64,000 nt of DNA from Veillonella atypica KON (GCF_002959915.1 NZ_PPDE01000008.1:682001-746000); one strand, 5' to 3'. Counted from the stretch's first letter, positions 1,600 through 58,197 are shown. Made by a program: numbers and translations. The notes: generated by a model not told the origin, from the letters alone.

Positions 1600-3492
1600 C
1601 TATTCCTTTACACTTGGCTTAATTTCCTGTGTTTCTTTTTTATTGGTTGTTGTTTTTGTATCAGTTGTTTTTGTGTCAGTCGTTTTTGAACTACTAGTAG
1701 GCACCTTAAAATAGGCACTCAAAATATCCCGTACAATCGGTCCTGCAGAGCCTGCACCAAAACCACCTTGCTCAACGAGAGCAACGACGACAATTTGAGG
1801 CTTATCATATGGTGCATACGCAACAAACCAGCCATGATCTCGGCCATGTGCGTTTTCCGCAGTCCCTGTTTTACCTGCTACAGCAACAGGGAAGCCTTTA
1901 AACAATTCACCAGCCGTACCACCTTCGCTAGTTACATCGCGAAGACCTTCTCGAATAAGGTCCATAATATTTTTAGGTACTGGAAGTACGCCTAGGTTCT
2001 TAGGTCCAAAAATTTCAGCTGGTGTCCCATCGGGATTATCAACACGACTCACCACATATGGTTGGTAACGAGTACCTCCATTCGCCACTTGACTGAGAAG
2101 TACAGCCATCTGTAATGGCGTTACCAAATGGAATGATTGCCCGATAGCCGCATCAAAGGTTTCGCCCAAATACCAATCTTGATCAAATACTTTCCGTTTA
2201 TACTCTGGACTTGCTACATTACCGGCTGCTTCACCGACCAGATTGATACCCGTTTTTTCACCTAAGCCAAAATAATGAGCATAGGTATCGATATTTTCAA
2301 TGCCTAAGCGATTACCCATTTCATAAAAATACACATTATCAGACTTAGCCAAAGCACGATTAAAATTCAACCACCCCAATGCTTCGCCTTCTGCATTTCT
2401 CTTATCAATGAGCCAGTGTTTCCCACTATCAAAAATCATTTCATCAGGAGTTACCTTTTTCAAGTCTAATGCAGCTGTACCAGTTACAATTTTAAAAGGT
2501 GATCCTGGTGGATATTCACCAGCAATGACCTTATTTTCAAAAGGATGACTCTTGTCATTGTTCAATTGATTCCATTGAGTCGATGTAATGCCCTTGGCAA
2601 ACCAATTAGGATTAAATTCTGGTGCACTTACCATGGCAAGAACCGCGCCAGTATTAGGGTCTAATGCAACCACGGCTGCACCCGTTGCACCTGAACTACG
2701 CAACTGATCCAATTCCTTTTTAACAGCCTCTTCTGCCGCTTTTTGAATATTCACATCAATAGTAAGATGAATATTTGAACCCGGTACAGTATGCTTGCGA
2801 TCGACCTCTGCTACAGGTCGGCCAGACGCATCAACCTCTAATTGCTTGCCACCGTCAACGCCACGAAGCACTGAATCATATAATTTTTCTAAACCAGCAC
2901 GGCCTAGGATAGATCCAGCACCAACTGTTGTATTAGGGTCTTGTTCCTTAATTTCTGCTAGTTCATCTTCACTTACTTCACCAACATACCCAAATAGCTG
3001 AGATGCCATAGTTTCATATGGATAATATCTTAAAGGTTCTACATCGATAGAAACACCAGGCAATTCATGACGATGTTCTTCGATACTAGTCACCACGTCC
3101 ATGGAGATATCGTTAGCTATACGTATCGGTTCATAACCATGTTTGTGGTCTTCTACCTTTTTTTGAATTTCTTCTGGCTTTTTATGTAACAATGTAGCTA
3201 GCTTAGCCAATTCATCATCATCTAAAGGTTTGCCATTAGGCATAATAGAAATGGTATAGGCCGGTCTAGAACCGACTAAAATCTGACCATTTCTATCATA
3301 CATAACCCCACGAGCAGCCGTCATAGGTACAATGCGCAGGCGGTTACCCTCTGCTTTAGCTTGATAATAGCCACCCTCTAATATTTGCATAGCAAATAGA
3401 CGGAGCCCTAGAATAACGAAGATACCCATTACAATATAGAAAAGCACATCAAAACGGCTCGTTTTTTTTCTTTTATATAAACTTTCAAGCAC
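1600..3492 (-). CDS. mrdA: Penicillin-binding protein 2 (elongasome transpeptidase)
   Basis: The 630-residue class B PBP has one N-terminal membrane anchor (about residues 17-36), a dimerisation region, and a transpeptidase domain with the three active-site motifs SPFK (within GEYPPGSPFK), SDN (within AKSDNVYFYEMG) and KTG (VAGKTGTAEN). It cross-links peptidoglycan during side-wall growth and pairs with RodA. The start is GTG, with AAGGGG eight bases upstream. The C-terminal ~30 residues are a low-complexity Thr/Lys tail (repeats of TDTKT), outside the catalytic domain. It lies 38 bp downstream of mreD in the shape operon. Confidence 0.93.
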   Translation of the reverse strand: MLESLYKRKKTSRFDVLFYIVMGIFVILGLRLFAMQILEGGYYQAKAEGNRLRIVPMTAARGVMYDRNGQILVGSRPAYTISIMPNGKPLDDDELAKLATLLHKKPEEIQKKVEDHKHGYEPIRIANDISMDVVTSIEEHRHELPGVSIDVEPLRYYPYETMASQLFGYVGEVSEDELAEIKEQDPNTTVGAGSILGRAGLEKLYDSVLRGVDGGKQLEVDASGRPVAEVDRKHTVPGSNIHLTIDVNIQKAAEEAVKKELDQLRSSGATGAAVVALDPNTGAVLAMVSAPEFNPNWFAKGITSTQWNQLNNDKSHPFENKVIAGEYPPGSPFKIVTGTAALDLKKVTPDEMIFDSGKHWLIDKRNAEGEALGWLNFNRALAKSDNVYFYEMGNRLGIENIDTYAHYFGLGEKTGINLVGEAAGNVASPEYKRKVFDQDWYLGETFDAAIGQSFHLVTPLQMAVLLSQVANGGTRYQPYVVSRVDNPDGTPAEIFGPKNLGVLPVPKNIMDLIREGLRDVTSEGGTAGELFKGFPVAVAGKTGTAENAHGRDHGWFVAYAPYDKPQIVVVALVEQGGFGAGSAGPIVRDILSAYFKVPTSSSKTTDTKTTDTKTTTNKKETQEIKPSVKE

Positions 3493-3530
3493 CTATGATT
3501 CCCCTTATATGCTTTACTAAATCAGCAATA

Positions 3531-4022
3531 CTACCAAATATAATCTTCTTTTTCTTCCATAAGGCCCATGAGTTTATGTCCTATACCACCTAATATGGCA
3601 TTCCAAAATACAGTTGGCATCACCATATGCCCCATGTAAGAAATGAATTGGATATCACCACCACTGGCACCGATCATGATGCAGCGCATAATTCCATCTA
3701 AAATTGTACAAACACCGATAATGCCGCATGACCAGTACCAACGCTCTTCGTATACACTACTTTTTACAAGAGACAATAGATATACTACGACAATATACGG
3801 AAAGAGATGTAATCCAAAAAAGTTAGATATCAAAATATCGTGAATGGATCCACCTACTACAGCAGCGATAAGCCCCATTTTTCGACCTTTAAAAATCGTG
3901 ACTAAAACTACAGCAGTCAGTATACAATTGGGTAGCCAATTCGTATGAAATATGGCCGGTAATAATTGAGCCTGTATAAAATACAAAGCACAACACACGA
4001 GAATTAATGCAATATACCTCAT
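3531..4022 (-). CDS. mreD: Rod shape-determining protein MreD
   Basis: The 163-residue, very hydrophobic protein has about five membrane segments and the MreD-type central sequence GLIAAVVGGSIHDIL followed by FFGLHLFPYIVVVYLL. MreD is an inner-membrane member of the elongasome that links MreC to RodA and PBP2. Its ATG overlaps the stop codon of mreC (ATGA), indicating translational coupling. Family assignment rests on length, topology and synteny, since MreD sequences diverge strongly. Confidence 0.88.
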   Translation of the reverse strand: MRYIALILVCCALYFIQAQLLPAIFHTNWLPNCILTAVVLVTIFKGRKMGLIAAVVGGSIHDILISNFFGLHLFPYIVVVYLLSLVKSSVYEERWYWSCGIIGVCTILDGIMRCIMIGASGGDIQFISYMGHMVMPTVFWNAILGGIGHKLMGLMEEKEDYIW

Positions 4023-52222: not shown

Positions 52223-53164
52223 TTATAATTCACCTTCTGCAATAGCATCCAATGTATCAAGGGATGGAATAAAGAACAACATACCCGTAATAGGTTTAGA
52301 GTAATCGAGCAATTTGTCGTTTTGTGTGAACATATTCGTAAGCATTGTTTTCGTTACATCCCAGTAACGAGCATAGCCGATGAAATATGTGCCACGCACA
52401 CCTTGGCCAGGTTGTGCAAATGGTACATTCATACGAACGATTTTATGTTCTTCGTCATCGCGATTGTCTTGAGCTACTACATTGTGAGCTGCTGGATCTT
52501 TTTCATCATCTTCCAATTCAATATCGCTGAATTTACGACGGCCAATGAATTTTTCTTGCATTTCTGTAGGAAGTGCACGCCAAGCATCAAGGTCGTGTTC
52601 ATATTTTTGTGCAAATGCATAAGAACCATTAGTGAATTCAGGGTCTTCATCACCGATAACGCCCCACTCTACTGCTTCTTGGCCTACAGGATTTTCCGTA
52701 CCATCAACGAAATCGATAATAGCACGACCTTGTTCATAATGGAAACCATGAGTTTCATCAACTACAGATGTAATAGGACGCAAGAATTCCATGATTTGAT
52801 CCACTACAGTATATGTAACAGATTCATTATTGGAACGAACATGTAAGAACAAATCAGCCGCTACAGCTGGCACGTCTTGTTTATCACCTTTAATACCTTG
52901 GAAGTCTTCTAACTCTTTTGGTACAGGTGCATTAGGGAATAAATAATCCCATGCTTTACGGCTAAAGCCAAAAGCGATACCCAAGCCTTCGCCATTAGCA
53001 CGAATACTAACAGAACGTTTAATGGCTTGAATACGATCAGCCATATCTTGGATGACTTCTAATTCTGCATCGCGATCTTTACGATTTAATAATAATGTTG
53101 TGAAATTGACACTTTGACCAGCATCTTTATATACATCTTGTGTTCTAGCTACATCTACTGCCAT
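52223..53164 (-). CDS. DyP-type haem peroxidase
   Basis: The 313-residue protein has the GxxDG motif in RAIIDFVDGTENPVG, the conserved region PGQGVRGTYFIGYARYWDVTKTMLTNMF containing the distal Arg, and DLFLHVRSN in the first half. No Tat or Sec signal peptide is present, so it is cytoplasmic, like the YfeX class. It would reduce peroxides or act on porphyrins, a useful oxidative defence for an anaerobe. It is monocistronic with a promoter and a terminator. Confidence 0.92.
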   Translation of the reverse strand: MAVDVARTQDVYKDAGQSVNFTTLLLNRKDRDAELEVIQDMADRIQAIKRSVSIRANGEGLGIAFGFSRKAWDYLFPNAPVPKELEDFQGIKGDKQDVPAVAADLFLHVRSNNESVTYTVVDQIMEFLRPITSVVDETHGFHYEQGRAIIDFVDGTENPVGQEAVEWGVIGDEDPEFTNGSYAFAQKYEHDLDAWRALPTEMQEKFIGRRKFSDIELEDDEKDPAAHNVVAQDNRDDEEHKIVRMNVPFAQPGQGVRGTYFIGYARYWDVTKTMLTNMFTQNDKLLDYSKPITGMLFFIPSLDTLDAIAEGEL

Positions 53165-53189
53165 TTGGAACCTCCTAATGAGAAATAGT

Positions 53190-53218
53190 ATTATATACCA
53201 ATCATAAGTGATTACTAA
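53190..53218 (-). promoter_or_regulatory. Promoter of the DyP peroxidase gene
   Basis: TTAGTA and TATAAT are spaced by 17 bp on the minus strand about 30 bases before the RBS AGGAGG. Confidence 0.55.
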
Positions 53219-53251
53219 TTTATTGTCTATGCAATATTTATCAGAATAAAT

Positions 53252-53449
53252 TTATAAAGACTTTATTTCTTTACCATATAGACGTTCCATACCTTGTCTA
53301 GTGACAAGCCACATTTTCCCTGATTTTCTAAATTCTCCTTCTAAAAATCCATTCTTTACACGACCCCTACAGTTTTGTTTAAGAGAATCAGCAGTAACAT
53401 TCCAGCGTTCTGCCGCCTCTTGTGTGGTCATTACATCATCTAATTTCAT
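53252..53449 (-). CDS. Small helix-turn-helix protein (module 1)
   Basis: The 65-residue protein contains MTTQEAAERWNVTADSLKQN, a MerR/excisionase-like helix-turn-helix, then a wing-like basic part (GRVKNGFLEGEFRKSGKMWL) and the tail VTRQGMERLYGKE. It is nearly identical to the gene at 55186-55392 (about 85% of aligned residues). Its ATG overlaps the last base of the stop codon of the upstream membrane-peptide gene, and its AGGAG lies inside that gene, so the two are translationally coupled. Possible roles are repressor, excisionase-like factor or antitoxin; none is proven. Confidence 0.7.
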   Translation of the reverse strand: MKLDDVMTTQEAAERWNVTADSLKQNCRGRVKNGFLEGEFRKSGKMWLVTRQGMERLYGKEIKSL

Positions 53450-53535
53450 TATAGAACTCCTAATATTACTAATAGATTATAAACGGATAACACAAAAGCA
53501 ATAATACTAATTATTAAAGTTAATCTTGAAATCAT
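53449..53535 (-). CDS. 28-residue membrane peptide coupled to HTH (module 1)
   Basis: The peptide is MISRLTLIISIIAFVLSVYN followed by LLVILGVL, one hydrophobic helix with a single Arg near the start. The RBS is weak (GGCGAG close to the ATG), but its stop codon TAA overlaps the ATG of the HTH gene and the matching module 2 has the same layout with a strong RBS. It resembles small holin-like or type I toxin peptides in size only. A longer frame to 53676 in the same phase runs through a hairpin and another gene and is rejected. Confidence 0.5.
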   Translation of the reverse strand: MISRLTLIISIIAFVLSVYNLLVILGVL

Positions 53536-53568
53536 ATGCTCGCCATTGTTATAATAGTTAGGAAGATT

Positions 53569-53586
53569 GGGGCTCTTACGAGCCCC
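53569..53586. other. Hairpin between the two membrane peptides of module 1
   Basis: GGGGCTC-TTAC-GAGCCCC is a perfect 7-bp G+C-rich stem directly after the 31-residue peptide gene. No U tract follows, so it may attenuate or process rather than fully terminate. Confidence 0.6.
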
Positions 53587-53591
53587 TGTGG

Positions 53592-53687
53592 TTACTGATT
53601 TAATAACTGTATTATTGCGATTGCAAGCTGGATAAACGCGGTTATTATTGGTAGCCACTTTTTTGTTATCTTCCATAACTTCTTCAA
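53592..53687 (-). CDS. 31-residue basic amphipathic membrane peptide (module 1)
   Basis: From a TTG start at 53687, the peptide reads (M)KKLWKITKKWLPIITAFI then QLAIAIIQLLNQ. AAGGAGG, a perfect Shine-Dalgarno sequence, ends eight bases before the TTG; an in-frame ATG at 53693 is too close to it. The basic N-terminal third followed by a hydrophobic helix resembles small membrane-active peptides. It is the first gene after the promoter at 53724-53751. Function unknown. Confidence 0.55.
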   Translation of the reverse strand: MKKLWKITKKWLPIITAFIQLAIAIIQLLNQ

Positions 53688-53703
53688 TGGCATCACCTCC
53701 TTC

Positions 53704-53751
53704 CTTATGTCTGCCTTAACTATACTATATATTTTGTCTGACATAAGTCAA
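53704..53751 (-). promoter_or_regulatory. Promoter with flanking inverted repeat, module 1
   Basis: TTGACT (53746-53751) and TATAGT (53724-53729) are spaced by 16 bp on the minus strand. The 8-bp arms CTTATGTC (53704-53711) and GACATAAG (53740-53747) bracket the -10, a layout expected for an operator. The HTH protein of the module is the obvious candidate ligand (inference). Confidence 0.55.
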
Positions 53752-53773
53752 ATAAATCTTTTTAACTAAAAGA

Positions 53774-53803
53774 GGACTTCCACATCTCTAAATGTAGAAG
53801 TCC
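53774..53803 (-). terminator. Terminator after the 39-residue gene
   Basis: GGACTTC/GAAGTCC plus ACAT/ATGT form an 11-bp stem with one mismatch; CTCTTTTAG follows on the minus strand. Confidence 0.7.
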
Positions 53804-53867
53804 CCATATCAAGTTAATGAATACATATAGTCAGCATATATACATCACTAACTTAATACCTCTAACA

Positions 53868-53987
53868 TTAATTAGAGGATTTCTTCTTTTTCACGGGCAC
53901 CCAAAAGCGCCAGCATGTATATCCGTATTCGGATGCAATCATTCGTTTGCCCCAACGGTTTGTATACTCTTTACAGAATATCCACAT
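53868..53987 (-). CDS. 39-residue small basic protein, unknown
   Basis: The frame begins MWIFCKEYTNRWGKRMIASE and continues YGYTCWRFWVPVKKKKSSN. GGGAGG is six bases upstream of the ATG. It is rich in Trp, Tyr, Lys and Arg, with a basic tail. I recognise no family with certainty; similar short Tyr-Gly-Tyr proteins occur in phage-like regions. It follows a structured leader and precedes a terminator, so it looks like a real transcription unit. Confidence 0.55.
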   Translation of the reverse strand: MWIFCKEYTNRWGKRMIASEYGYTCWRFWVPVKKKKSSN

Positions 53988-54080
53988 AAAGGCCTCCCTT
54001 CTGGGACTATTGCAAAACCTTCATGTAAATGCTAAAATAACTTTGATAACTAAATTAGTCTGACCATTTACGTTCAGATT

Positions 54081-54110
54081 CAATTTTATAAGTTGCAGCT
54101 TATAAAATTG
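54081..54110. repeat. Perfect 12-bp inverted repeat in the leader of the 39-residue gene
   Basis: CAATTTTATAAG and CTTATAAAATTG are separated by TTGCAG. It would form an AU-rich RNA hairpin or serve as a protein-binding site. Confidence 0.6.
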
Positions 54111-54127
54111 GCTACAGCCCCTTGTAT

Positions 54128-54163
54128 TCAACCACTTGGTGGCTGTTTTTTTATTGCCATCAT
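54128..54163 (-). CDS. Possible 11-residue leader peptide
   Basis: MMAIKKQPPSGG-type frame (MMAIKKQPPSG then G, stop TGA) starts seven bases after AAGGAGG, immediately after the ImmA-type gene. CCACC/GGTGG and ACAGCC/GGCTGT pairings occur over and after its end. It may be a leader for the 39-residue gene or a decayed gene start. Confidence 0.3.
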   Translation of the reverse strand: MMAIKKQPPSG

Positions 54164-54179
54164 ATCAATACCTCCTTAC

Positions 54180-54683
54180 TTACTTTCTTCTTCTTTGTAT
54201 TGATGCTGCTTTTTCTGTGATTCCATAATAACGTGCTATGTCTATTACGCTCATATCTTTAATATATTCATATGGTGCTAGTAATTCACCTGCAAATGCA
54301 TTCGCTTGCCACTCAGGATCTTTATATGGTGGTATATCTCCATCTTCTCTCGCAAACGTAATCGTCTCTGCACGATGTAATAATAGATGTCCTAATTCAT
54401 GTGCCATAGTTAATCTGTCTCGACCATAGCCATTGCAAGCACGTTCATATACATCTTCTCTAATACGAATTCTGTTTTCGCTTGGAATTGTTTCTCCATG
54501 CTTGGTACCCATTTCATGTTTTGGTACAATTTCGAATTCTACGCCAATTTGCGTAAGTATATATTCAAATACTTTCACAATATCAACCGGTGCATTTAAT
54601 GGTATATCGAATATTGTTCTAATCAACTCACATCTTTTACGAATTTGTTTCAAACTCAATGGAGGTACAGATAAACCAGCCAT
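54180..54683 (-). CDS. ImmA/IrrE-family metallopeptidase
   Basis: The 167-residue protein has the zinc motif in RLTMAHELGHLLLHRAETI (HExxH with a third ligand downstream in EWQANAFAGELLAP). ImmA-type proteases cleave an XRE-family repressor to induce mobile elements after DNA damage. The likely partner repressor is encoded 12 bp upstream. The short C-terminus (DIARYYGITEKAASIQRRRK) matches the family helix. Confidence 0.88.
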   Translation of the reverse strand: MAGLSVPPLSLKQIRKRCELIRTIFDIPLNAPVDIVKVFEYILTQIGVEFEIVPKHEMGTKHGETIPSENRIRIREDVYERACNGYGRDRLTMAHELGHLLLHRAETITFAREDGDIPPYKDPEWQANAFAGELLAPYEYIKDMSVIDIARYYGITEKAASIQRRRK

Positions 54684-54695
54684 ATTTCAAACCAC

Positions 54696-55046
54696 CTACT
54701 TTTCTAAAATACAACGAATTTCTTCTAATTGTTCATCTGTTAACTTTTCAAACTGTCTAGCTAACGTCAAAACCATTGTTTTCTGGTTATGATTTACTTG
54801 AGATAAATCAATATCAATATTAGTTCTAACACTGTCCTCTGCAGATTGTAATTCCATTACAATATCTTGACTTAAACCATAGTAACTCTTTATCTTATTA
54901 GTTAAGTCTGTAGGAATTGGCCGTTTTCCATTTTCAATCGATGAAAGATAAGCAGAGGTCATACACAAGTTTTCGGCCATATCTTTTAAAAGTTCGTCTT
55001 TATCAATTCTTATTTTTCTAAGAATCTTGCCGTATGATGTTGCCAT
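54696..55046 (-). CDS. XRE-family repressor (ImmR-like)
   Basis: The 116-residue protein has a Cro/cI-type helix-turn-helix (YGKILRKIRIDKDELLKDMA, then MTSAYLSSIENGKRPIP) and a helical C-terminal part ending LTDEQLEEIRCILEK. It is the expected partner of the ImmA peptidase. The RBS is AGGAGG. A strong promoter and a 12-bp inverted repeat precede it, suggesting autorepression. Confidence 0.87.
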   Translation of the reverse strand: MATSYGKILRKIRIDKDELLKDMAENLCMTSAYLSSIENGKRPIPTDLTNKIKSYYGLSQDIVMELQSAEDSVRTNIDIDLSQVNHNQKTMVLTLARQFEKLTDEQLEEIRCILEK

Positions 55047-55063
55047 TATGCTTCCTCCTAAAC

Positions 55064-55106
55064 ACAGTGTAGTTATCTAATAAAGTAATAGGATTAACTA
55101 CACTGT
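55064..55106. promoter_or_regulatory. Operator-like inverted repeat before the XRE gene
   Basis: ACAGTGTAGTTA (55064-55075) and TAACTACACTGT (55095-55106) are perfect 12-bp arms 19 bp apart, placed between the -10 element and the start codon. This is a typical autoregulatory operator. Confidence 0.65.
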
Positions 55107-55108
55107 TA

Positions 55109-55137
55109 ATTTTATTACTTTTTATGCTAATTGTCAA
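55109..55137 (-). promoter_or_regulatory. Promoter of the XRE-ImmA operon
   Basis: TTGACA and TAAAAT are spaced by exactly 17 bp on the minus strand. Confidence 0.7.
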
Positions 55138-55185
55138 TATGTGGTATTTATCTTTTTGACTTTAATCTATATAGAGTAGTTTTAA

Positions 55186-55392
55186 TTATTTAAGTCTTTC
55201 CTTTCCATATAGCCTTTCCATCCCTTGACGGGTTACAAGCCAGATTTTCTTCGACTTTCTAAACTCACCTTCTAAAAATCCATACTTCACACGCCCTCTA
55301 CAGTTTTGTTTAAGTGACTCGGCAGTAACATTCCACCGTTCTGCAGCCTCTTGTGTAGTCATAATACCATCTAGTCCAAATTTCAATTTCAT
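55186..55392 (-). CDS. Small helix-turn-helix protein (module 2)
   Basis: The 68-residue paralogue of the module 1 protein shares MTTQEAAERWNVTAESLKQN, the GFLEGEFRKS wing and VTRQGMERLYGKE. The N-terminus (MKLKFGLDGI) is three residues longer. The ATG overlaps the stop codon of the membrane-peptide gene as ATGA, giving tight coupling. It sits between the XRE promoter and the DinD-like gene. Function unknown. Confidence 0.7.
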   Translation of the reverse strand: MKLKFGLDGIMTTQEAAERWNVTAESLKQNCRGRVKYGFLEGEFRKSKKIWLVTRQGMERLYGKERLK

Positions 55393-55472
55393 AATCTTCT
55401 AACAAAACATCCGATTACTAATATTAAAACAATAATAGTCGCTATATTAATCAGCCATTCTAAATATTGCAT
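55389..55472 (-). CDS. 27-residue membrane peptide coupled to HTH (module 2)
   Basis: The peptide reads MQYLEWLINIATIIVLILVI then GCFVRRL: one hydrophobic helix with a basic C-terminal end. GAGGTG is well placed before the ATG at 55472, and the stop overlaps the HTH start. It corresponds in position and size, not in sequence, to the 28-residue peptide of module 1. Confidence 0.6.
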   Translation of the reverse strand: MQYLEWLINIATIIVLILVIGCFVRRL

Positions 55473-55509
55473 AATTCACCTCGTTGATTTACAATGATGT
55501 CGAGAAGGT

Positions 55510-55528
55510 GGCTGGGCTTTCACCCGCC
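55510..55528. other. Hairpin between peptide remnants of module 2
   Basis: GGC(T)GGG pairs with CCCGCC over CTTTCA with one bulged base. It occupies the same relative place as the hairpin at 53569 in module 1. Confidence 0.45.
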
Positions 55529-55534
55529 TGCTTT

Positions 55535-55627
55535 TTAGTCTTTGCTAACAAGTTTTAAAATTGCTAGTGCTAGTACCAGTAGCGTTAATGTATTTGCTAA
55601 ACTTGTTAGCTATTTTATTATGTCCAT
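55535..55627 (-). pseudogene. Membrane-peptide gene with in-frame stop (module 2)
   Basis: From the ATG at 55627 the frame reads MDIIK, then TAG, then LTSLANTLTLLVLALAILKL and VSKD before TAA. The distal part is a convincing hydrophobic helix in phase with the ATG, so this looks like a 29-30 residue membrane-peptide gene disrupted by an amber codon. It corresponds to the 31-residue peptide of module 1. It could also be chance. Confidence 0.35.
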
Positions 55628-55765
55628 ACTTACACCGCTTTACAATACCGTTACACGCTCTAACATGTTTAACAGCAAGATTCTTTTAATAAAAAACTAT
55701 CGACTTAGGTAAATAGTATGTATACAGAGAAATGGACACATATCATAATAGGAGGTGAAACTTAT

Positions 55766-56236
55766 ATGTTTTTCTTTTTTCTTGAGGAAGATACTAGTAC
55801 AGGTTCGTATACATCGCCTTTTGATTCGATAAAACAACTTGATGACGAAGGTAATGAGTATTGGTATGCTAGGGATTTACAAGGGATACTTGAATACTCC
55901 GAATGGCGAAATTTTTATAAAATTATTGAAAAGGCAAAAAATGCTTGTGAAGCCAGTGGTCATATGGTTCAATCCGAATTTGTTGACATCAACAAATTGG
56001 TAGATGTTGGGGCTAACTTACAACGTAGTATACAAGATATAGTACTCTCTAGATACGCTTGTTACTTAATCGCTATGAATGGTGATCCGCGTAAAGAGGT
56101 AATCGCATTAGCTCAAACTTATTTTGCGGTAAAAACTCACAAGCAAGAGCAATTAGAATTGCAAAAAGAAGATAGCTTATGCTTACAAATTGATCTGCAC
56201 CCATTTTCTTGGACAGACAATCAGAACCACCCGTAA
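55766..56236 (+). pseudogene. DinD/BRO-N-type protein, 3'-truncated
   Basis: The ATG at 55766 has AGGAGG eight bases upstream. The product starts MFFFFLEEDTSTGSY and has the BRO-N/DinD sequence FDSIKQLDDEGNEYWYARDL, GILEYSEWRNFYKIIEKAKN and LSRYACYLIAMNGDPRKEVI, then IALAQTYFAVKTHKQEQLE. DinD proteins are about 270 residues; this one ends after 156, in sequence that matches insertion-sequence-like DNA at 56191-56215, followed by an IS200-type element. DinD is a DNA-damage-induced modulator of RecA; BRO-N proteins are phage antirepressors. The truncated product probably keeps the N-terminal domain only. Confidence 0.7.
56191..56215. mobile_element. Possible IS3-family terminal inverted repeat remnant
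   Basis: CTGCACCCATTTTCTTGGAC resembles the terminal repeats of IS150-group IS3 elements. It marks the point where DinD-like coding sequence stops. No IS3 transposase is present. Recognition is by memory of the motif only. Confidence 0.35.
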
Positions 56237-56958
56237 AACGGGTGGTTTGCTCACGGGCTATAAGCCCGTAGTACTAGGCCAGCGTCTAAAGGCGCTGGCT
56301 TTCACTACGTTCAAGCCGCATAGCCATTGACTCGTAACGGTCCCCTTAAAGGGGATATGTATTACTTGCTACCCTTAAAAGGGTCCTCATATTCTTTTAC
56401 ACTAAGTTTATCTTTCATTTGGTCATGTAACTCTTGCTCACGTATATATTTTTTTACGGTAGCTTCATTTAATCCTACCGTACTTACATAATATCCCTCG
56501 GACCAAAAGTGTCTATTTCCAAATTTATACTTTAAGTTTGCGTGTTTATCGAACATCATTAGTGCACTTTTACCCTTTAGATATCCCATAAAAGATGAAA
56601 CTGATATTTTAGGTGGAATTAACACTAGCATATGCACATGATCTGCCATAAGCTCCCCCTCTATAATCTTGACGCCCTTATATTCACATAAACGTCTCAG
56701 TATTTCACGTAAACTATTTCTGTATTGATTATATATAACTTTACGTCTATACTTAGGTGTAAATACTATGTGGTATTTGCATAACCATTTTGTGTGCGCA
56801 AGGCTCTGTGTCTTTGTTGCCATATAAAATCACCTTTCTTTTGTATATAATGCGGCTTGAACACCTACATTATACTTAAGCAAGGTGATTTTTTTGTATA
56901 ACTTTCGTTGCCGCACCCGCATAGCGGGTGGTTTTATGATTCGCGACTACGTCGCGAA
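56225..56958 (-). mobile_element. IS200-type insertion sequence (tnpA only), ends approximate
   Basis: A tnpA gene is bracketed by clusters of perfect stem-loops instead of terminal inverted repeats. On the left are AACCACCCG/CGGGTGGTT (56225-56247), ACGGGCT/AGCCCGT (56253-56269) and GCCAGCG/CGCTGGC (56278-56299); on the right are CACCCGC/GCGGGTG (56914-56930) and TTCGCGAC/GTCGCGAA (56940-56958). Such subterminal hairpins are bound by HUH transposases. No tnpB lies within it. Exact ends cannot be fixed from one sequence. Confidence 0.75.
56362..56823 (-). CDS. tnpA: IS200/IS605-family TnpA transposase
   Basis: The 153-residue protein has YHIVFTPKYRRKVIY, the HUH motif in MADHVHMLVLIPPKISVSSF and the catalytic Tyr in GYYVSTVGLNEATVKKYIRE. 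It is a Y1 HUH transposase of full family length, moving single-stranded DNA. The start at 56823 is near the right-hand stem-loops. Its CDS appears intact. Confidence 0.93.
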   Translation of the reverse strand: MATKTQSLAHTKWLCKYHIVFTPKYRRKVIYNQYRNSLREILRRLCEYKGVKIIEGELMADHVHMLVLIPPKISVSSFMGYLKGKSALMMFDKHANLKYKFGNRHFWSEGYYVSTVGLNEATVKKYIREQELHDQMKDKLSVKEYEDPFKGSK

Positions 56959-57069: not shown

Positions 57070-58074
57070 TCAACTAGATATAACCAATTTCAACTGACTA
57101 AGACGCCCACTTAAATTAGCTGGAACAATTGCATATTCTACTCTAGTATTAACATTTTGTCTTACATCTACTACTAATTTTTCATACTGTTTAATAAAAG
57201 ATAAGATTTCTTTTTTAGGTACACATAATGTTTTCAAAAACCAAGAAATCAAAATAATGTAATCACCTATCGTATCAAAGTTAACAAAAGGTAAATTAAA
57301 ATAATGTACCATATAACTAGACATACTTCGTGTGGCATTAAAAGACTTAAAGCGAGCATCAAAAACTATTCCATTATGTGCTACAGCATTTCTTAAATCC
57401 TTAAGTAAATAGATATAGTTCGATAGCAATTTACGATTTGTATCAAATTGGACTCCTATACCTAAACTATGAGATATTCTATCTCTAGCAGCAATAGTAA
57501 AACTAGCTAATAATTTACCAAACTGACCTAACATCATAACTTCAAACAAAGCCCATATAGGAACCTCTGAAGCATGATTGTCATAAAAATGCGTAATTTT
57601 AGTATTTCTGGATTTATATTGATCTAATAATATGCTTTGGATCATTTTTTGTAGCAATAACTTATTTTGTTGAATTTTTTGCTTTTGCTCTCTACCAAGT
57701 GTTGTAGGAGAATTATGAAACCCTTCAACAGCTAATCTAAACATATCATTAATATGCTCAGATTGTATAAAATTTAAAACCTCTTCAAGTACAATATTTT
57801 TAACGGCAGTTTCTATAAACATTAATTTACTATATAACAATGACTTAAGCTCACTATCATATCGAATAATAGCTTCAACTTCACGATAATCTTGAATCGC
57901 CAGTCGGTTAGTAGGTTGTTTAAAAAATCTATAACCTTTATATCCATGAAAATACCCACTATTTCTTAATAGTCGTTTATCGGTCGTTCCTCTAATATCA
58001 ATACCTTGATTTCGTAAATGTCGCATTAAACCATTTAAAGACTTATAGCTCACAATATACGCCCTCTTCTCCAT
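57070..58074 (-). CDS. Abi-family (Abi_2, AbiD/AbiF-like) HEPN protein
   Basis: The protein (334 residues from MEKRAYIVSYKSLNGLMRHL) has NSGYFHGYKGYRFF, YREVEAIIRYDSELKSLLYS and IETAVKNIVLEEV of the Abi_2 family, then VPIWALFEVMMLGQFGKLL and the HEPN RNase-type motif LRNAVAHNGIVFDARF (Rx4H). Such proteins abort phage infection in lactococci and relatives. The gene is visibly more AT-rich than its neighbours, a sign of transfer. No clear RBS precedes the ATG at 58074. It has its own terminator and lies beside an IS. Confidence 0.82.
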   Translation of the reverse strand: MEKRAYIVSYKSLNGLMRHLRNQGIDIRGTTDKRLLRNSGYFHGYKGYRFFKQPTNRLAIQDYREVEAIIRYDSELKSLLYSKLMFIETAVKNIVLEEVLNFIQSEHINDMFRLAVEGFHNSPTTLGREQKQKIQQNKLLLQKMIQSILLDQYKSRNTKITHFYDNHASEVPIWALFEVMMLGQFGKLLASFTIAARDRISHSLGIGVQFDTNRKLLSNYIYLLKDLRNAVAHNGIVFDARFKSFNATRSMSSYMVHYFNLPFVNFDTIGDYIILISWFLKTLCVPKKEILSFIKQYEKLVVDVRQNVNTRVEYAIVPANLSGRLSQLKLVISS

Positions 58075-58197
58075 TTTATACAAACACGAACTAACTATAC
58101 AATTTAATTATAATCCTCTTAATATAAATTTACTATTTATATATAATGAGATTTATAAATAAAGCACTATGAGTATTCTTCTAAACTCTACCTTTAC
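58075..58197. other. AT-rich leader of the Abi gene
   Basis: This stretch must contain the Abi promoter on the minus strand; I see no strong consensus match and no gene. Confidence 0.4.

Follow-up and report, generated by a model that had tools for sequence, protein, structure and literature searches.

Two sets of very small genes on the minus strand of a 64,000-nt stretch of the Veillonella atypica KON genome (NZ_PPDE01000008.1:682001-746000; hereafter the window, in which positions are counted) raise the question of what kind of unit couples two tiny membrane peptides to a small regulator. As originally predicted, both copies share one layout, consisting of a first membrane peptide gene (P1), a GC-rich hairpin, a second membrane peptide gene (P2) and a gene for a helix-turn-helix (HTH) protein, here assigned to the HTH_59 family (PF20038). 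The best reading, to which a probability of roughly 0.6 is given, is that this cassette is a type I-like toxin-antitoxin module that is carried by prophages and encodes its own autorepressor, and that the window contains remnants of it. Comparison of sequences reveals a conserved anatomy, a predicted antisense promoter and terminator with covariation, pairing of the HTH protein with its operator and of P1 with P2, and a position in prophages.

Distribution and position of the cassette

HTH_59 matches are present in 41 of 61 Veillonellales genomes, and by our reading of the searches the complete P1-hairpin-P2-HTH cassette is present in 17 of the 61, in four families. Strains with an intact cassette include V. 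montpellierensis DSM 17217 and V. caviae DSM 20738. The original prediction was to be abandoned if homologues of the HTH gene mostly lacked an upstream hydrophobic frame; about 35 of the 43 small stand-alone HTH_59 genes have one abutting or overlapping their start, although some of these are remnants. Because of this proportion, and because P1, P2 and HTH are under purifying selection (see below), the layout is judged from these comparisons to exceed chance. A phage/plasmid of Lactobacillus crispatus (L091) has the same plan, with the cassette flanked by lysozyme and integrase, as do other viral contigs of Lactobacillus type (L097, L098) and one metagenomic viral contig that is GC-rich (L107). 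Plasmids, and sites behind other genes, also carry HTH_59-like domains that have no peptides, so that the HTH protein is a general regulator which the cassette has recruited. No peptides were found upstream of the plasmid HTH homologues of L. reuteri, L. intestinalis and L. johnsonii. Upstream of position 3001 in L102-L106, HTH_59-like domains follow frame pairs that presumably resemble DUF4160/DUF2442 toxin-antitoxin genes.

In several prophages (L018, L019, L025/L039, L029, L036 and L038), the cassette lies after the endolysin/holin-like lysis genes and is followed by host genes or by the end of the prophage; L028 has further genes separating the cassette from the lysis genes. Several cassettes have a terminator upstream of the P1 promoter.

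Two nested spanin-like frames are found among the lysis genes of several of these prophages. In Veillonella prophages these frames occupy about 460 bp directly 3' of the endolysin gene, and the two membrane/secreted frames are nearly fully nested in different reading frames (L037:3189-3674 and 3193-3666; L038:3163-3597 and 3167-3631).

The membrane peptides

Across cassettes, P1 is mostly 27-41 amino acids (aa) long with a single hydrophobic segment, within the size (<60 aa) expected of small type I toxins, and P2 is a membrane peptide of 25-48 aa. The pooled ratios of nonsynonymous to synonymous polymorphism (pN/pS) in the copy 1 lineage are 0.25 for P1, 0.23 for P2 and 0.36 for HTH, which indicates that all three genes are under purifying selection and therefore translated. 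P1 and P2 similarities are strongly correlated (r = 0.84), and each correlates far less with that of the HTH protein. On this evidence, P1 and P2 travel as a pair and the HTH gene is exchanged; L052 and L075, for example, share 95% identity in P1 and 88% in P2 but 55% in HTH.

The HTH proteins of the two window copies are 86% identical and their peptides are unrelated, as had been noted, but the copies represent two P1/P2 lineages, with L019, L013 and L010 nearest to copy 1 and L012 and L036 nearest to copy 2, and have only the HTH gene in common. Tandem duplication of a module was consequently rejected. The inference of diverging peptides beside conserved regulators proved to be an artefact of comparison across lineages, since P1 and P2 are better conserved than HTH within a lineage.

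The window peptides gave no convincing score in Pfam, NCBIfam or PHROGs. A programmed -1 frameshift at A-AAA-AAG, which would fuse P1 and P2 of copy 1 into a 75-aa frame, was considered and rejected: although the slippery sequence is kept, L010 and L013 have a closed frame downstream of it. Sequestration of the Shine-Dalgarno sequence by the 3' end, as in hok, was unsupported (predicted accessibility 0.61, versus 0.41 with shuffled tails), and sequestration by the pyrimidine-rich stretch 3' of the hairpin was rejected, as folding gave it no support. Such sequestration by the 3' end does not define all type I systems.

A predicted antisense RNA

The role of antitoxin is likely filled by a predicted antisense RNA, encoded on the strand opposite to that described in the original prediction. 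Most cassettes have a sigma-70-like promoter with an extended -10 element on the antisense strand, just 5' of P2; the example in copy 1, with 11 of 12 matches plus TG, is the top-listed promoter-like site in 53100-56000. An antisense intrinsic terminator lies within P1, with a stem formed by codons from both ends of the gene and followed by a U-run. Mean scores over 27 cassettes are 12.1 for the promoter (9.7 when shuffled) and 15.8 for the terminator (9.9 when shuffled; 20 of 27 cassettes at P<=0.05), and the sense strand of the P1 region usually has no comparable terminator. The two elements are jointly present in 67% of cassettes, in 0 of 12 peptide-less HTH genes and at 1.75% of random window positions. 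The predicted RNA has a median length of 103 nt and spans P1 and the hairpin.

In the six-member group with L047-type P1, the stem of the terminator covaries, with double changes in four pairs (covariation 0.257 versus 0.168 when shuffled, reached in 0 of 500 shuffles), and L009 retains an antisense terminator despite an unrelated P1. At the level of sequence, the cassettes show a hallmark of type I systems, a cis-encoded RNA that overlaps the toxin gene in antisense and has a promoter and terminator to itself, and we infer that the RNA exists and silences P1. No RNA family was assigned in an Rfam search, where the best hits fell far under the gathering scores. The GC-rich hairpin, in which L013 has a compensated G-C to A-T change relative to copy 1, was considered as a sense-strand terminator and discarded because it has no U-run.

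The regulator and its operator

The HTH proteins of copies 1 and 2 score 107 and 95.8 bits against HTH_59, for which the cut-off is 27. The predicted fold of the copy 1 protein is a winged HTH (model predicted local distance difference test score 86) with no further domain, resembling MerR/excisionase proteins, including Tn916 Xis and RdfS, all with weak E-values. A type II arrangement, in which a protein antitoxin doubles as the autorepressor, was considered as well; the protein has no domain apart from the winged HTH. Intact P1 promoters are near consensus and contain a palindrome centred in the spacer between -35 and -10; repression is therefore implied. Judging from operator comparisons, this palindrome tracks the HTH protein rather than the peptides. 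Operator similarity is 0.79 for pairs with like HTHs and unrelated P1s (P = 5e-5) and 0.48 for pairs with like P1s and different HTHs, against a background of 0.50. L051 and L052 have identical HTHs and nearly identical operators but unrelated P1s, whereas L052 and L075 have nearly identical peptides but different HTHs and operators (palindromes TTATACACTAATTAGTGTATAA and TTATACCGTATATACGGTATAA, respectively). The HTH protein probably binds its operator, and the cassette would consist of two units, a P1-antisense RNA-P2 core and an operator and HTH gene that flank this core yet stay matched.

The 8-bp inverted repeat previously described around the copy 1 promoter (53747-53740/53711-53704) does exist, but it was rejected as an operator: it is unconserved in intact cassettes, and the conserved operator sits in the -35/-10 spacer. 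Its right arm is part of the ribosome-binding-site context of the copy 1 P1 lineage, and L019 has GACATAAG without the left arm.

Proposed mechanism and alternatives

In the proposed mechanism, in which the toxicity of P1, the role of P2 and the benefit of the module are presumed, an autonomous promoter would transcribe P1-hairpin-P2-HTH, and a strong extended -10 promoter at the beginning of P2 would produce, from the opposite strand, an antisense RNA roughly 100 nt long that spans the hairpin and P1 and ends at the terminator encoded in the P1 codons. This RNA would pair with the P1 mRNA and silence P1, the candidate toxin. P2, the second membrane peptide, would be cognate to P1 and coupled in translation to HTH; it may act together with P1 or be a second, less potent toxin. 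The HTH protein would bind the palindrome and repress the P1 promoter. Loss of the module or induction of the prophage would unbalance the antisense RNA and repressor against P1, which would serve prophage maintenance or aid host-cell killing or release. Among the functions first suggested (toxin/antitoxin-like, holin-like or signalling), the first pointed in the right direction and the other two gained no specific support.

Several points weigh against a toxin-antitoxin module of this design. The P1 and P2 peptides of the window and ten other sequences have no match above cut-off to curated type I toxin families (Pfam/NCBIfam models), and the L009 P1 is amphipathic, not hydrophobic. One antisense element is partly missing in L044, L048 and L069, a clean TGnTATAAT is lacking in L002, L050, L051 and L009, and the search of L091 gave no terminator on the antisense strand. 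The P1 promoters of the window copies, including the copy 1 spacer, contain no significant palindrome. The similarity-class thresholds behind the operator values of 0.79 and 0.48 were chosen after the data had been seen, and across all pairs the operator is weakly rank-correlated with the HTH (partial rho 0.11, P 0.13). Finally, cassettes of the same lineage are non-independent observations, and every relative was found via the HTH protein, so that HTH-less cassettes would escape. P1-hairpin DNA without HTH was sought in the 61 genomes at the nucleotide level only, and this candidate was dropped, as all five full matches accompany an HTH gene.

The cassette could instead be a superinfection-exclusion or abortive-infection moron, with P1 and P2 expressed from the prophage to block incoming phages, and the antisense RNA and HTH protein keeping this expression tolerable. 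This possibility would suit an element that sits beside the lysis genes at the end of the prophage, with a terminator preceding a promoter of its own, the large diversity of P1/P2 and operators, as in phage-phage conflict, and the AbiD-like gene in the same window island; it is nonetheless considered unlikely. An auxiliary lysis unit, in which holin- or pinholin-like P1 and P2 tune lysis timing on induction, would explain why the cassette comes immediately after the holin and endolysin genes and the nested spanin-like frames, and has a precedent in hokW-sokW, which one report links to lysis and release of the phage Sp5 (PMC8621323). However, a terminator separates the cassette from the lysis operon, the cassette has its own repressible promoter, and a holin-like gene is already present in these prophages, which makes such a role distinctly improbable. 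That the HTH protein acts chiefly as an excisionase (recombination directionality factor) at a nearby attachment site, with the peptides as incidental leader frames, is hardly credible, for although it matches PHROG 2655 'excisionase' (E 2.5e-16), has the fold resemblances given above and is encoded near attP and integrase in L. crispatus, the P1 promoter palindrome tracks it, P1 and P2 are under purifying selection, and HTH_59-like genes also occur on plasmids distant from any phage integrase.

The window copies and their surroundings

Under the toxin-antitoxin reading, the two window copies look like partly decayed relics of the prophage-borne cassette (Table 1). Copy 1 retains P1, P2, HTH and the antisense elements; its P1 starts with TTG at the correct spacing from GGAAGGAGG, and its P2 stop and HTH start overlap by 1 nt (4 nt in copy 2). 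In copy 2, P2 and HTH are open, but P1 is broken, its promoter and ribosome-binding site are degraded, and the antisense promoter is weak, with TACAAT where L012 reads TATAAT. The in-frame TAG already reported for the copy 2 P1 is a true nonsense change, the codon being GAG in L012 and GAA in L036.

Table 1. Coordinates of cassette features within the window.
Feature	Position	Strand	Remarks
Copy 1 HTH_59 protein, 65 aa	53252..53449	-	PF20038 E 4.6e-31; predicted autorepressor
Copy 1 P2 membrane peptide, 28 aa	53449..53535	-	group pN/pS 0.23
Copy 1 predicted antisense promoter TTGAAA-18-TATAAT, TG extension	53526..53555	+	-35 inside P2
Copy 1 predicted antisense RNA, ~103 nt	53562..53664	+	estimated start to terminator U-run; inferred
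Copy 1 GC-rich hairpin GGGGCTC-GTAA-GAGCCCC, GNRA loop	53569..53586	-	within predicted antisense RNA region
Copy 1 antisense intrinsic terminator in P1	53588..53664	+	arms 53588-53599, 53647-53658; U-run 53659-53664
Copy 1 P1 membrane peptide MKKLWKITKKWLPIITAFIQLAIAIIQLLNQ, 31 aa	53592..53687	-	TTG start; candidate toxin; group pN/pS 0.25
Copy 1 P1 promoter TTGACT-TATAGT	53719..53751	-	without spacer palindrome of intact relatives
Copy 2 HTH_59 protein, 68 aa	55186..55392	-	PF20038 E 1.5e-27
Copy 2 P2 membrane peptide, 27 aa	55389..55472	-	stop overlaps HTH start
Copy 2 weak antisense promoter TTGCAT-17-TACAAT	55467..55495	+	score not above shuffles
Copy 2 GC-rich hairpin	55510..55528	-
Copy 2 P1, disrupted	55535..55627	-	TAG at codon 6 (55612-55610)
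Copy 2 antisense intrinsic terminator in P1	55544..55619	+	perfect 12-bp stem 55544-55555/55599-55610, then TATTTTATT

Both copies are embedded in an island made up of remnants of mobile elements and adjoining a Dyp peroxidase gene, and worn copies are kept at the same locus, near tRNA-Lys, in the relatives L015-L017 and L037. In L037 (3850-4000), the IMG/VR prophage call overruns the probable attachment site at the 3' end of tRNA-Lys and takes in a host-side worn HTH copy. Between the window cassettes (54180-55046, minus strand) are an XRE regulator and an ImmA/IrrE metallopeptidase with weak PADLOC similarity to CapH/CapP associated with cyclic oligonucleotide-based antiphage signalling systems (CBASS). 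Downstream of the ImmA gene, 53880-54170 on the minus strand contains a tiny frame (MMAIKKQPPSGW), hairpins and a further frame beginning MWIFCKEYTNRWGKRM, with a weak Rfam match to the Streptococcus small RNA SpR08 (25.7 bits versus a gathering score of 80), and is possibly another small-RNA or peptide unit. The island also includes an Abi_2/AbiD-like abortive-infection gene (57070-58083, minus strand) adjoined by an IS200-like transposase (56362-56823). A BRO-N antirepressor-like fragment (55718-56236, plus strand) is a prophage relic.

Relation to known systems and significance

The closest described case is yonT/SR6/yoyJ of the Bacillus subtilis prophage SPbeta, in which a 100-nt antisense RNA lies between two toxin genes (PMC5848175). 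Both are prophage systems with an operon in which the gene for a toxin peptide precedes that for another small toxin, and with an antisense RNA of about 100 nt (predicted here) that has an extended -10 promoter and overlaps the 3' part of the first gene. However, YonT is 58 aa, unlike P1, and SR6 extends 30-40 bp into yoyJ, whereas only the antisense promoter enters the second gene of the cassette. The cassette further differs in its GNRA-loop hairpin after P1, its antisense terminator in the P1 codons and its HTH gene with its own operator; no mention of an HTH repressor for yonT was found in the parts of that report consulted. On sequence evidence, the co-encoded, operator-matched repressor and the terminator within P1 are what the cassette adds to this system.

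The Clostridioides difficile toxins CD0904.1 and CD0956.3 (34-35 aa) are likewise small hydrophobic prophage peptides with antisense RNAs, for which prophage stabilisation has been proposed (PMC6563280); the likeness is one of description, and the excerpts available show neither a second peptide coupled to the toxin nor an HTH repressor dedicated to it. The hokW-sokW pair of prophage Sp5 in Escherichia coli O157 is, as proposed for the cassette, a prophage type I system with a membrane toxin, but Hok is unmatched by sequence in the cassette peptides and no coupled HTH repressor was found in the accessible part of its description (PMC8621323). The regulator is a clear member of HTH_59 (PF20038)/PHROG 2655, and the Pfam family is silent on P1, P2, the antisense RNA and the operator. 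The literature searched yielded no type I system that encodes a dedicated repressor of its own together with a matching operator, and none for Veillonella or other Negativicutes.

It is tentatively suggested, at less than even odds, that the cassette represents a new class of Firmicutes phage module. Such a module would unite a cognate pair of membrane peptides, an antisense RNA whose terminator is encoded in the codons of the toxin, and an operator and HTH gene that can be swapped, the latter two being replaced together, as a matching set, while the peptide-RNA core stays fixed. Its three layers of control would be antisense silencing, autorepression and a possible action of P2 on P1. If confirmed, the cassette would explain a family of small genes that lack annotation and lie at the ends of prophages in Firmicutes of the mouth and gut, would provide a natural series on the co-evolution of repressor and operator during exchange around a constant core, and would be a case of a coding sequence doubling as the terminator of its own antisense RNA.

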